Assembly (NCBI RefSeq): GCF_001874145.1
Contig: NZ_MPCX01000011.1
Location: 1 to 64,000 of the forward strand
Origin: Lacinutrix sp. MedPE-SW
GTDB taxonomy: Bacteria > Bacteroidota > Bacteroidia > Flavobacteriales > Flavobacteriaceae
Reading direction: 5' to 3'
DNA: 64,000 bases
In this document: positions 44,551 to 47,116 of the stretch, one piece after another
How positions within the stretch are numbered: position 1 is the stretch's first letter
How the letters are laid out: the number at the start of each line of letters is the position of its first letter
Program-made: the position numbers and the translations under genes
Notes under the pieces: generated by a model
What the model saw: the letters and a program-made list of their open reading frames with translations, nothing else
Database searches by the model: none
Told to the model about the DNA's origin: nothing

Positions 44551-45324
44551 ATGATTAATATGAAAAATATAGGCTTCCTTTTTTTAATTTTAACACTATT
44601 TGGATGTAATTCTAATAAAAAAAGCACTGTCGCACCTCCTAGTATTACCAGTGAAAAACAAATTGAAGAAAAACAATTCCCTAAATTAGAGCCTAACCGT
44701 TATAATGTTGCATTTTTAATAATGGATGGTACTTTTAATACAGAACTAACTGCGCCTTTCGATATTTTTCAACATACCATATTTAGAGAAAATATTAAGG
44801 CCATGAATGTTTTTACTGTTGCAAATACAGATAAACCTATTACTACTTTTGAAGGCATGCGTATTACTCCAGATTTTAACTATGTACAAGATAGCTTACC
44901 TAAAATAGATATATTGGTTGTACCTAGTGCTGAACATCATTTAGATACAGACCTAGAAGATAAAGTAATGATTGATTTTGTTAAAAAAATTGATAAAGAA
45001 GCTACTTTTATAACATCGCATTGTGATGGAGCTTTTGTATTGGCAAAAGCGGGACTATTAAATAATGTTACTTCAACAACTTTCCCTAGTGATATTGATA
45101 AAATGCGAGAAATGTTTCCTAAACTAGATATTAAAAAAGAGGTGTTATTTGTTCATGATGGTAAATACATTACCTCTGCTGGTGGTGCAAAAAGTTTTGA
45201 AGCTGCACTATATTTATGCGAATATCTTTACGGAAAAGAAATTGCACAATCCCTCGCTGGTGGTTTAGTAATAGACTGGAATCTTAATAATGTACCACAT
45301 TTAATTATTGAAAAAAATCTTTAA
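44551..45324 (+). CDS. DJ-1/PfpI family lipoprotein
   Basis: A 257-aa lipoprotein (IGFLFLILTLFGCNSNKK) with a class I glutamine-amidotransferase-like domain from about residue 50. Motifs: AFLIMDGTFNTELTAPFDIFQHT, LVVPSAEHH, and the nucleophile elbow FITSHCDGAFVLAKAGLL with the conserved Cys. The set-up is close to the AraC-regulator-type DJ-1 domain but without a DNA-binding part and attached to the envelope. The ATG at 44551 or the one nine bases later could be used. The stop overlaps that of the RES toxin by four bases (TTAA). Confidence 0.9.
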   Translation: MINMKNIGFLFLILTLFGCNSNKKSTVAPPSITSEKQIEEKQFPKLEPNRYNVAFLIMDGTFNTELTAPFDIFQHTIFRENIKAMNVFTVANTDKPITTFEGMRITPDFNYVQDSLPKIDILVVPSAEHHLDTDLEDKVMIDFVKKIDKEATFITSHCDGAFVLAKAGLLNNVTSTTFPSDIDKMREMFPKLDIKKEVLFVHDGKYITSAGGAKSFEAALYLCEYLYGKEIAQSLAGGLVIDWNLNNVPHLIIEKNL

Positions 45325-45791
45325 AGTTTTGTAGAATCCAACAAACGACTATCGATATCTAAATCTGAAATTTTAATAATCTTTAATTTACCTATGTCTT
45401 TATGCTTTGGGTTTACTAAAATATTATTTGCTATTGGCAGTATAGCACAAGGTACTTTTAATGCTAATTTTTTATTTTCTTTTAAAAAGTTATTTCCAAG
45501 ATTTATAGTACTGCTTTTTGGTGGGTTATCTCTCCAATCGCTATTTAAATCTTTTATTTTTAGACTTTTATTAACCAAGGTCTCTGGAATTTCCACTTCC
45601 ATATAACCAAAATCGTTAGATAAATATTTAAAATCAAGGTGCACTAAAACCTCTAAAAGACTTGTAGATAAACTGTCTGAGAAATATAACATAGCCATAC
45701 CTTTTTTATTCCAACGGCCACCATATAACCTAGAACCTTCACCAGATAAATCTTCTAAATATTGCTTTTTAGCTATTCTAAAACCTCGCAT
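45321..45791 (-). CDS. RES domain toxin (NAD+ phosphorylase type)
   Basis: A 156-aa RES-family toxin. RES toxins degrade cellular NAD+ and are neutralised by Xre/DUF2384 antitoxins. The invariant residues are visible in the N-terminal FRIAKKQYLEDLSGEGSRLYGGRWNKKGMAMLYFSDSLS (Arg and Glu), with TSLLEVLVHLD following. Length is typical. It lies two bases after its antitoxin gene on the same strand, in the standard antitoxin-toxin order. Confidence 0.93.
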   Translation of the reverse strand: MRGFRIAKKQYLEDLSGEGSRLYGGRWNKKGMAMLYFSDSLSTSLLEVLVHLDFKYLSNDFGYMEVEIPETLVNKSLKIKDLNSDWRDNPPKSSTINLGNNFLKENKKLALKVPCAILPIANNILVNPKHKDIGKLKIIKISDLDIDSRLLDSTKL

Positions 45792-45793
45792 AA

Positions 45794-46297
45794 TTAAGAG
45801 TAAACACCAAATTCTATACGGCCTAAAACATCTAAAATTAATGCAGTACCAAAACTGGTATCTAGCAAACTAATAGGTTTATTATAGTTTAAAACACGAA
45901 TATCACTGTGCAACCAAGATGTGAAGTTATCTAGTGTTCCTAAAACTTCTATACCGCGTGAAACAACTTGAGCAATTTCTAGTATTTGCTCTGTACTGTA
46001 AACATTTAATAAATCACTATCACTTTTACGTTGAATTGTACGGTGCGAAACATGTATTAAATCACTCATGTGCTCCATAGAAATACCTAATAATTTACTA
46101 AGCGTTAAAACCGTAGATTTTGGCAATCCTTTTCTAGTAATTTGAATAAGATCAAAATCGCTGTTTATATCTTGAGAGATATTTGCACTACCTCCCAAAA
46201 CACTTATAATTCTATCGTATTTGTTATCTAAGCCATAAAAAGTTTCTGGCTCATTTGCTAAGTTTTGAATACTAGATTCTTGTTTGTAAGGTTTCAT
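45794..46297 (-). CDS. Antitoxin Xre/MbcA/ParS (DUF2384) family
   Basis: A 167-aa antitoxin for the RES toxin. The N-terminal half contains an Xre-type helix-turn-helix (GLPKSTVLTLSKLLGISMEHMSDLIHVSHRTIQRK), the C-terminal half the toxin-binding DUF2384 domain (RGIEVLGTLDNFTSWLHSDIRVLNYNKPISLLDTSFGTALI). The ORF track starts at a GTG (46315) that falls on the -7 box TATATTTG, so I use the ATG at 46297. An inverted repeat around the -7 box suggests autoregulation. Confidence 0.92.
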   Translation of the reverse strand: MKPYKQESSIQNLANEPETFYGLDNKYDRIISVLGGSANISQDINSDFDLIQITRKGLPKSTVLTLSKLLGISMEHMSDLIHVSHRTIQRKSDSDLLNVYSTEQILEIAQVVSRGIEVLGTLDNFTSWLHSDIRVLNYNKPISLLDTSFGTALILDVLGRIEFGVYS

Positions 46298-46301
46298 GAT
46301 T

Positions 46302-46336
46302 ACGACATTTGACACAAATATAATTAATTTTGTCGT
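46302..46336 (-). promoter_or_regulatory. Promoter/operator of the toxin-antitoxin operon
   Basis: The -7 box TATATTTG (46315-46322, minus) is bracketed by the inverted repeat ACGACA (46302-46307) and TGTCGT (46331-46336). Such a palindrome around the core promoter is what an autorepressing Xre antitoxin would bind. Confidence 0.5.
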
Positions 46337-46362: not shown

Positions 46363-46902
46363 TTAATTACAAATTTTACAATCTTCTTTTTCTTGTATTT
46401 CTCCAACCAATACACCATTATCATTCTCAACAAAACCACAACAATCCATAAAACCTTGTGCAACCATTTTTCGGGCGCGTTGTATTTGAGATTTTACGGT
46501 TGGCAGAGTAAGTTGTAATTGTTTCGCAATATCTGCTTGCTTTAATCCTTTAATATCTGAAAGAAACAATGGTTCTCTATACTTTTTAGGTAAGCTTTTT
46601 AAAATGCCATGTAAGCATTCTTTTTCTGTGTGAGTAGATTGTTTTATTTGCGTTTGAGTTTCAAAATTTGCAATCTCAAACGTTTTATTATTTGTTTTAA
46701 AATAATCTAGTACTGAATATCTTGCAATAGAAAATAACCAAGATTTTAGTTTAGAAACGTCTTGCAGAGTATTTAACTTAGTATGAATTTTTATAAACAC
46801 ATCCTGCAATATATCATCTGCTACCGCATCATTTTTTACTTTACTAAAAATAAAACGTTTTAAATCCTTAGCGTATGTTTGCCAAATTTGTTTTGTTGTC
46901 AT
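46363..46902 (-). CDS. sigZ: ECF-type RNA polymerase sigma factor SigZ
   Basis: A 179-aa sigma-70 family factor. Region 2 at about 5-70 (LKRFIFSKVKNDAVADDILQDVFIKIHTKL ... KLKSWLFSIARYSVLDYF) and region 4 at about 100-155 (LKSLPKKYREPLFLSDIKGLKQADIAKQLQLTLPTVKSQIQRARKMV) are complete. The tail carries a cysteine cluster, MDCCGFVEN ... EDCKICN (four Cys), suited to bind a metal or sense thiol stress. The ORF-track start is a TTG at 46908; the ATG at 46902 is preferred. Fifty-six bases upstream, on the same strand, ends a 33-residue cysteine-rich gene. Confidence 0.88.
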   Translation of the reverse strand: MTTKQIWQTYAKDLKRFIFSKVKNDAVADDILQDVFIKIHTKLNTLQDVSKLKSWLFSIARYSVLDYFKTNNKTFEIANFETQTQIKQSTHTEKECLHGILKSLPKKYREPLFLSDIKGLKQADIAKQLQLTLPTVKSQIQRARKMVAQGFMDCCGFVENDNGVLVGEIQEKEDCKICN

Positions 46903-46914
46903 AACCAAAATATT

Positions 46915-46954
46915 AAGTCGGTTTTACATAGAGTAAATTACATAAAACCAACTT
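46915..46954 (-). promoter_or_regulatory. Hairpin between the cysteine-rich gene and sigZ
   Basis: A 12-bp stem (AAGTCGGTTTTA / TAAAACCAACTT on the plus strand) is fully paired as minus-strand RNA, with one G-U pair, around a 16-base loop. It is followed by AATATTTTGG rather than a clean U-run, so it may be a leaky terminator or an RNA-stabilising element that sets the ratio of the two products. Confidence 0.5.
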
Positions 46955-46958
46955 TTAA

Positions 46959-47060
46959 TTAACACTTACAATTTACGCAAGTACAATTCTCGCATGTACA
47001 AGATTTACAATTGCCTTTTTTACAAGATTCACAGTTACAGTTACATTCTATATTTTTCAT
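46959..47060 (-). CDS. 33-aa cysteine-rich microprotein (metallothionein-like)
   Basis: Too short for the ORF track. The ATG at 47060 opens a 33-residue frame starting MKNIECNCNCESC with 11 Cys, arranged as CNCNC, CxxC, CTC, CTC and a final CKC, and no hydrophobic part. The density of Cys-x-Cys and Cys-x-x-Cys pairs is what metallothioneins use to bind Zn, Cu or Cd. A random frame would be unlikely to show one-third cysteine, all in alternating pairs, bounded by ATG and TAA. It is read in the same direction as sigZ, whose product has a cysteine tail, and ends 56 bases before it. A possible ECF-type promoter lies upstream. No homologue is claimed. Confidence 0.7.
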   Translation of the reverse strand: MKNIECNCNCESCKKGNCKSCTCENCTCVNCKC

Positions 47061-47087: not shown

Positions 47088-47116
47088 TAGACTAAAAATT
47101 ATGTAAAAAGATGCAA
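47088..47116 (-). promoter_or_regulatory. Possible ECF-type promoter of the cysteine-rich gene and sigZ
   Basis: On the minus strand, TTGCATC, 17 bases, GTCTA. A GTCTA-type -10 is common for ECF sigma factors, and no TAnnTTTG box is found here, so the operon might be read by SigZ itself. Speculative. Confidence 0.25.

Follow-up and report, generated by a model that had tools for sequence, protein, structure and literature searches.

The closest described counterparts of the locus considered here are CorE and CorE2 of Myxococcus xanthus (former group ECF44, now ECF238), ECF sigma factors that sense Cu or Cd/Zn through a Cys-rich C-terminal extension and work without an anti-sigma factor (PMC8999054, PMC3107203). 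Further cysteines lie between the sigma2 and sigma4 domains of these proteins, where CorE needs a CXC motif. SigZ is a separate sequence family, represented by the models TIGR02959 and NF007215 and by SigZ of B. subtilis. No described function was found in the literature for SigZ, B. subtilis included, and none is given in PMC10141391. The bacterial metallothioneins SmtA/BmtA and MymT are very small and Cys-rich, with CxC and CxxC pairs and few hydrophobic residues, aromatic ones being nearly absent from metallothioneins, and zinc-binding anti-sigma factors (ZAS) carry an HxxxCxxC motif within a helical domain. Literature searches on SigZ in connection with arsenic and on metallothioneins of Bacteroidota found nothing relevant, and the combination of a microprotein with a self-driven sigma factor was not found described.

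The locus lies in a window of 64,000 nucleotides from Lacinutrix sp. MedPE-SW, the whole stretch of DNA that was analysed, and consists of the following features.

46959–47060, minus strand: Cys-rich microprotein, putatively metallothionein-like (ATG start, 33 aa, 11 Cys, MKNIECNCNCESCKKGNCKSCTCENCTCVNCKC)
46363–46902, minus strand: sigZ, ECF sigma factor (ATG start, 179 aa; SigZ models are the best matches, below their cut-offs)
46369–46443, minus strand: Cys tail of SigZ, CCGFVENDNGVLVGEIQEKEDCKIC (C154, C155 and C175 invariant in the alignment of partnered SigZ)
47088–47115, minus strand: predicted SigZ-type promoter (−35 TGCATC at 47110–47115, T-tract, 16-nt spacer, −10 AGTCTA at 47088–47093)
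46915–46954, minus strand: intergenic hairpin, probable leaky terminator (folding energy −16.7 kcal/mol, z −5.3)

The locus and its sigma factor

The original prediction described a 33-codon frame with 11 cysteines on the same strand as sigZ, and both the coordinates and the translation agree with it; the two minus-strand genes are separated by 56 nt between the end of the microprotein ORF and the start of sigZ. The four-Cys tail that it noted in SigZ (CC...CxxC) is made up of C154, C155, C175 and C178. It also stated that no anti-sigma factor gene adjoins the pair, and indeed none is found among the identified neighbours of sigZ, the flanks being occupied by a RES/Xre toxin-antitoxin pair and a gene for an Lrp/AsnC-type regulator. 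Features not contained in that prediction are the promoter, the hairpin, the cysteine C96 of the linker, the kinship with arsenic and mercury operons, and the different Cys-rich partners of other SigZ proteins, including downstream ones. The RES/Xre pair (ParT/ParS-type; window 45321–46315, minus strand) lies directly 3' of sigZ and also adjoins sigZ in a few relatives.

By its sequence, the sigma factor is SigZ-like. TIGR02959 and NF007215 are its best matches of all models, although its scores fall just below both curated cut-offs (156.9 versus 168.65 and 172.8 versus 212 bits, respectively). Its clade is nested among members that exceed the cut-off in a tree built from 116 SigZ proteins. 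These 116 comprise 64 SigZ partnered by a Cys-rich peptide and 52 unpartnered ones; one locus entered as 'none' in the tree (L253) bears a 30-aa peptide with 10 Cys, so that partnered loci number 65/116.

Across the 64 partnered SigZ, invariance is limited to seven residues (W55, C96, K137, C154, C155, G163 and C175), four of them cysteines. C178 is kept in over 90% of the same 64 proteins. While CC154-155 and C175 are widespread in the tree as a whole (108–111 of the 116), C96, within the motif EKECLHG, is present in 64/64 partnered SigZ versus 19/52 unpartnered. In an AlphaFold2 model of SigZ (mean pLDDT 83, pTM only 0.45), C96 opens the first sigma4 helix behind a disordered linker (75–88), CC154-155 closes the last helix, and a short beta hairpin precedes C175/C178. 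Foldseek matches of this model are ordinary ECF sigma factors. Taken with the alignment, these counts strongly support strict selection on the SigZ cysteines together with the microprotein.

SigZ shares several features with CorE and CorE2: it is an ECF sigma factor, its C-terminus carries a Cys-rich extension, a further cysteine lies between sigma2 and sigma4, and no anti-sigma factor is linked to it. It differs in having a single cysteine at the linker/sigma4 border (C96) in place of CXC, a shorter tail, and an operon shared with a Cys-rich microprotein. The best-supported reading is that SigZ would function much as CorE does; it is not classed with the CorE-like sigma factors because the CXC linker motif, the signature of the former ECF44, is absent.

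Conservation of the microprotein and its pairing with sigZ

The microprotein is the only one among 166 ATG ORFs of 25–60 aa in the window in which cysteine makes up at least 25% of residues (33%). Having no aromatic residue and no His, few hydrophobic residues, and its cysteines in CxC/CxxC pairs, it resembles the bacterial metallothioneins in size and composition. It differs from SmtA/BmtA and MymT in its fixed register of 11 Cys in 33 aa, in the missing His, and in being encoded with its own sigma factor. No match to the microprotein was found in NCBIfam, Pfam (its metallothionein models included) or PDB; it is not assigned to a known metallothionein family because no model matches. We infer that it is a metallothionein-like metal buffer.

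For a short frame that matches no library family, a chance or spurious ORF has to be considered, and the likelihood of this appears negligible. In 60 Markov-simulated windows, 0/14,127 ORFs of 25–60 aa reached 25% Cys, the maximum being 18.5%. The frame is present in 40/301 family genomes (the family is taken to be Flavobacteriaceae from related named loci such as L003, Lutibacter), and all 11 cysteines are invariant and in register across the 40 aligned cores, even though the codon varies between TGT and TGC at all 11 positions. Overall, the pN/pS ratio is 0.29; it drops to 0.00 at the Cys codons, whose pS is 1.02, and stands at 0.57 for the remaining codons. These low values point to selection on the protein and not on the RNA alone. 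The Cys content far beyond that of simulated ORFs and the conserved cysteines amid synonymous change led to the rejection of a chance ORF.

In 34/40 microprotein-bearing genomes sigZ follows the microprotein gene immediately and in the same orientation, with 3 to 249 nt (mostly 40–84) to the SigZ match in these 34. Conversely, where a family genome has a close SigZ (E below 1e-40), an intact microprotein stands in front of it in 35/36 cases. The exception (G190) retains a frameshifted microprotein remnant before a sigZ with stops, and in a genus mate (G305) a broken sigZ lies behind a microprotein that has lost five residues, two cysteines among them. The two genes thus decay together in both genomes (L313, L314), with the promoter site retained. 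The proposal that microprotein and SigZ form one unit, to be judged by conservation near sigZ and by gene neighbourhoods in relatives, is in line with these results; across the 14-kb regions around the microproteins only sigZ is always adjacent and co-oriented. As seen by comparison, then, a single conserved unit is strongly supported. A wider functional cassette with icmF, the Lrp/AsnC gene, a 131-aa gene or a family-1 membrane-protein gene was rejected, because only sigZ is constantly adjacent on the same strand; these other genes represent backbone synteny.

Six microproteins have no adjacent sigZ (L101, L104, L111, L112, L114 and L118). The one at L111 is of the 11-Cys type without fitting the exact Cys pattern, and at L112 a gene for a CDF transporter is found upstream of the microprotein.

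Predicted promoter and intergenic hairpin

Every SigZ-linked microprotein in the family loci is preceded by a promoter-like site. The bipartite site, TGCATCTTTTT-N11-CGTCTA or a close variant (that is, TGCATC-N16-CGTC), is located ~40–100 nt before the microprotein ATG, and its spacing is that of an ECF −35/−10 pair. The version in the window is TGCATCTTTTTACATAATTTTTAGTCTA (47088–47115). When up to two mismatches are allowed, the operon site is the sole match in its own genome. Over 35 genomes, 17/17 perfect matches fall at the microprotein-sigZ operon, and the remaining weaker matches are at the level of a reversed-pattern control.

Phylum-wide, with both 15-nt and 16-nt spacers allowed, the site class precedes sigZ at 63/64 microprotein loci versus 9/52 others (null 0.4%); partnered SigZ fall into few clades, and these co-occurrence counts, like that for C96, follow phylogeny and are not independent events. 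TGCRTC-N15/16-CGTC also occurs before distant sigZ genes in Flammeovirga, several Bacteroidota MAGs, Paenibacillus and an acidobacterial MAG. In a further SigZ clade of Flavobacteriaceae, which has a 14-Cys partner, the operon is preceded by TGTATC-N16-[ACG]GTCTAC or close variants in 10/10 genomes searched; one additional exact match each, in G219 and G222, lies within coding sequence. The site is absent before five sigZ-less microproteins, where TAnnTTTA-like boxes stand in its place; we take these boxes to resemble Bacteroidota housekeeping promoters.

Mainly because sigma factor and site vary together, the bipartite site is very probably the SigZ promoter. The original prediction also held that SigZ drives the chelator and itself. 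The distribution of the promoter tracks SigZ, and such autoregulation is therefore strongly supported by comparison. A larger SigZ regulon was not found, additional motif matches lying inside coding sequence (L308–L311) with one exception. In G084 (L312, C14:17000-20410) the gene for a CDF cation exporter has a site with 1 mismatch 23 nt ahead of it; no site was found before that gene in the other genomes with a readable upstream region (18/26 loci, that of the window's own genome not among them).

A strong hairpin separates the microprotein stop from the sigZ start. Its sequence differs among loci and its presence is maintained throughout, with z below −3 in 32/34 loci as compared with 0/40 and 2/34 control stretches from the same loci. 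T-runs follow the stem on its 3' side at several loci, and Rfam gives no match to a known riboswitch or leader RNA at this locus. The simplest reading is that the hairpin may serve as a leaky terminator, which would yield much microprotein and little sigma factor.

SigZ relatives, metal genes and proposed regulation

One SigZ clade (support 99/95) is characterised by the 11-Cys partner, present at 37 loci. In its sister group an upstream peptide of 36–41 aa with 12–14 Cys is found at 12/13 loci. A separate clade (support 97/86) is formed by 13 SigZ that have a different Cys-rich ORF downstream of sigZ, and other upstream Cys peptides occur at two further loci, or three including L253. None of those SigZ-linked Cys peptides that were tested matched a library profile. 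The three SigZ lineages carry unrelated Cys-rich microproteins, which suggests that such genes were gained or swapped beside SigZ more than once, or that they have diverged beyond recognition.

SigZ genes without a microprotein have a different neighbourhood. NCBIfam models identify arsenite methyltransferase (ArsM), ACR3, ArsC, ArsI/CadI, MerTP, HgcA and SaoE-like permeases among their neighbours, and at least one such arsenic/mercury/cadmium-type gene lies within 3.6 kb at 32/52 of these loci versus 2/64 partnered ones. The sigma factors in these arsenic/mercury operons (with ArsM, ACR3, ArsI/CadI, MerTP or HgcA) belong to the same family and share the CC...C tail, but the operons produce a detoxification enzyme or a transporter and mostly lack both C96 in their SigZ and the TGCRTC site. 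The microprotein thus appears to hold the place that a detoxification gene occupies in the rest of the SigZ family. No metal gene adjoins the 11-Cys units themselves, and the metal theme is drawn from SigZ relatives without a microprotein; because these adjoin ArsM, ACR3, ArsC, ArsI/CadI, MerTP and HgcA genes, a thiophilic metal(loid) as the signal is supported indirectly. The site ahead of the CDF exporter gene in G084 fits the same theme.

Based on these observations, it seems probable that the two genes form a metal-stress operon under its own control. SigZ would sense a thiophilic metal, transcribe a metallothionein-like buffer together with some SigZ, and be reset by chelation. In the resting state there would be little SigZ, and it would be inactive. 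The inducer would be a thiophilic metal or metalloid of the As(III), Cd, Zn, Hg or Cu class, bound by a SigZ cysteine cluster that would combine Cys96, from the border of linker and sigma4, with the tail residues CC154-155 and Cys175/178. Bound metal would bring sigma2 and sigma4 into the active arrangement, and since the metal would set this arrangement directly, an anti-sigma factor would be unnecessary. SigZ-RNA polymerase would then use TGCATC-N16-[CA]GTCTA to transcribe the microprotein at a high level, with the hairpin stopping most transcripts and readthrough supplying some additional SigZ. The microprotein would chelate the metal, both protecting the cell and stripping metal from SigZ, which would close a negative loop.

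The same cysteines could instead serve a redox switch, with SigZ sensing disulfide, electrophile or hypochlorite stress and the microprotein acting as a thiol buffer or redox peptide. The original prediction allowed for thiol or oxidant sensing, and some SigZ in other taxa have thioredoxin-like neighbours. The recurrent neighbours of microprotein-less SigZ are, however, arsenic, mercury and cadmium genes, and the CxC/CxxC register of 11 cysteines, kept without loss, fits metal clusters better than a thiol pool; we regard a redox switch as unlikely. Tight linkage and co-decay, along with the lack of any other anti-sigma factor beside sigZ, would also be expected if the microprotein were mainly an antagonist of SigZ, a minimal metal-loaded anti-sigma factor and not a general chelator. 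This is decidedly improbable given that the microprotein has no hydrophobic surface and, having no His, lacks the HxxxCxxC motif of the ZAS proteins. Moreover, unrelated Cys-rich peptides fill the same niche in other SigZ clades, and sigZ-less copies of the microprotein exist with other promoters.

The order of a Cys-rich ORF, a hairpin and a regulator gene is also the layout of an attenuator, in which ribosome stalling at Cys codons of a functionless leader peptide would control the hairpin and hence sigZ. Several features make this very improbable. Purifying selection extends to the non-Cys codons, so the peptide sequence does not behave as dispensable, and the Cys codons are spaced out and form no run. 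Nor is the ORF always upstream of the gene to be regulated: a Cys-rich ORF lies downstream of sigZ at 13 other loci, and six microproteins have no sigZ behind them. The missing Rfam match points in the same direction.

If the metal-stress operon is the correct reading, SigZ would acquire a role, together with a predicted promoter and a candidate signal, and in most genomes it would have no predicted target other than its own two-gene operon. Very small metal-buffering proteins that library annotation overlooks are also predicted to form a family, and the unit could be put to use as a compact metal biosensor. A broader proposal, for which we consider the case evenly poised, is that SigZ may be a wide family of one-protein sigma factors sensing thiophilic metal(loid)s. 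In Bacteroidota they would form a closed one-operon regulon whose sole target is a new metallothionein microprotein family plus the sigma factor itself, several unrelated microproteins having been recruited by lineage, and the rest of the family would run arsenic and mercury operons, including hgcAB.

Three loci with individual neighbourhoods may be added. On the Arenibacter plasmid pSMS7 (L343) a SigZ-like gene is followed by thioredoxin-like and permease genes. At another SigZ locus (L250) an ArsR-like gene, a MerTP fusion and ACR3 are found nearby. In a Salinivirgaceae MAG (L008:5001-7000), the genes that immediately follow sigZ are hgcA (HgcA model E 6e-126, motif NVWCAAGK) and one for an HgcB-like ferredoxin, and this SigZ is a candidate sigma factor for the control of mercury methylation.
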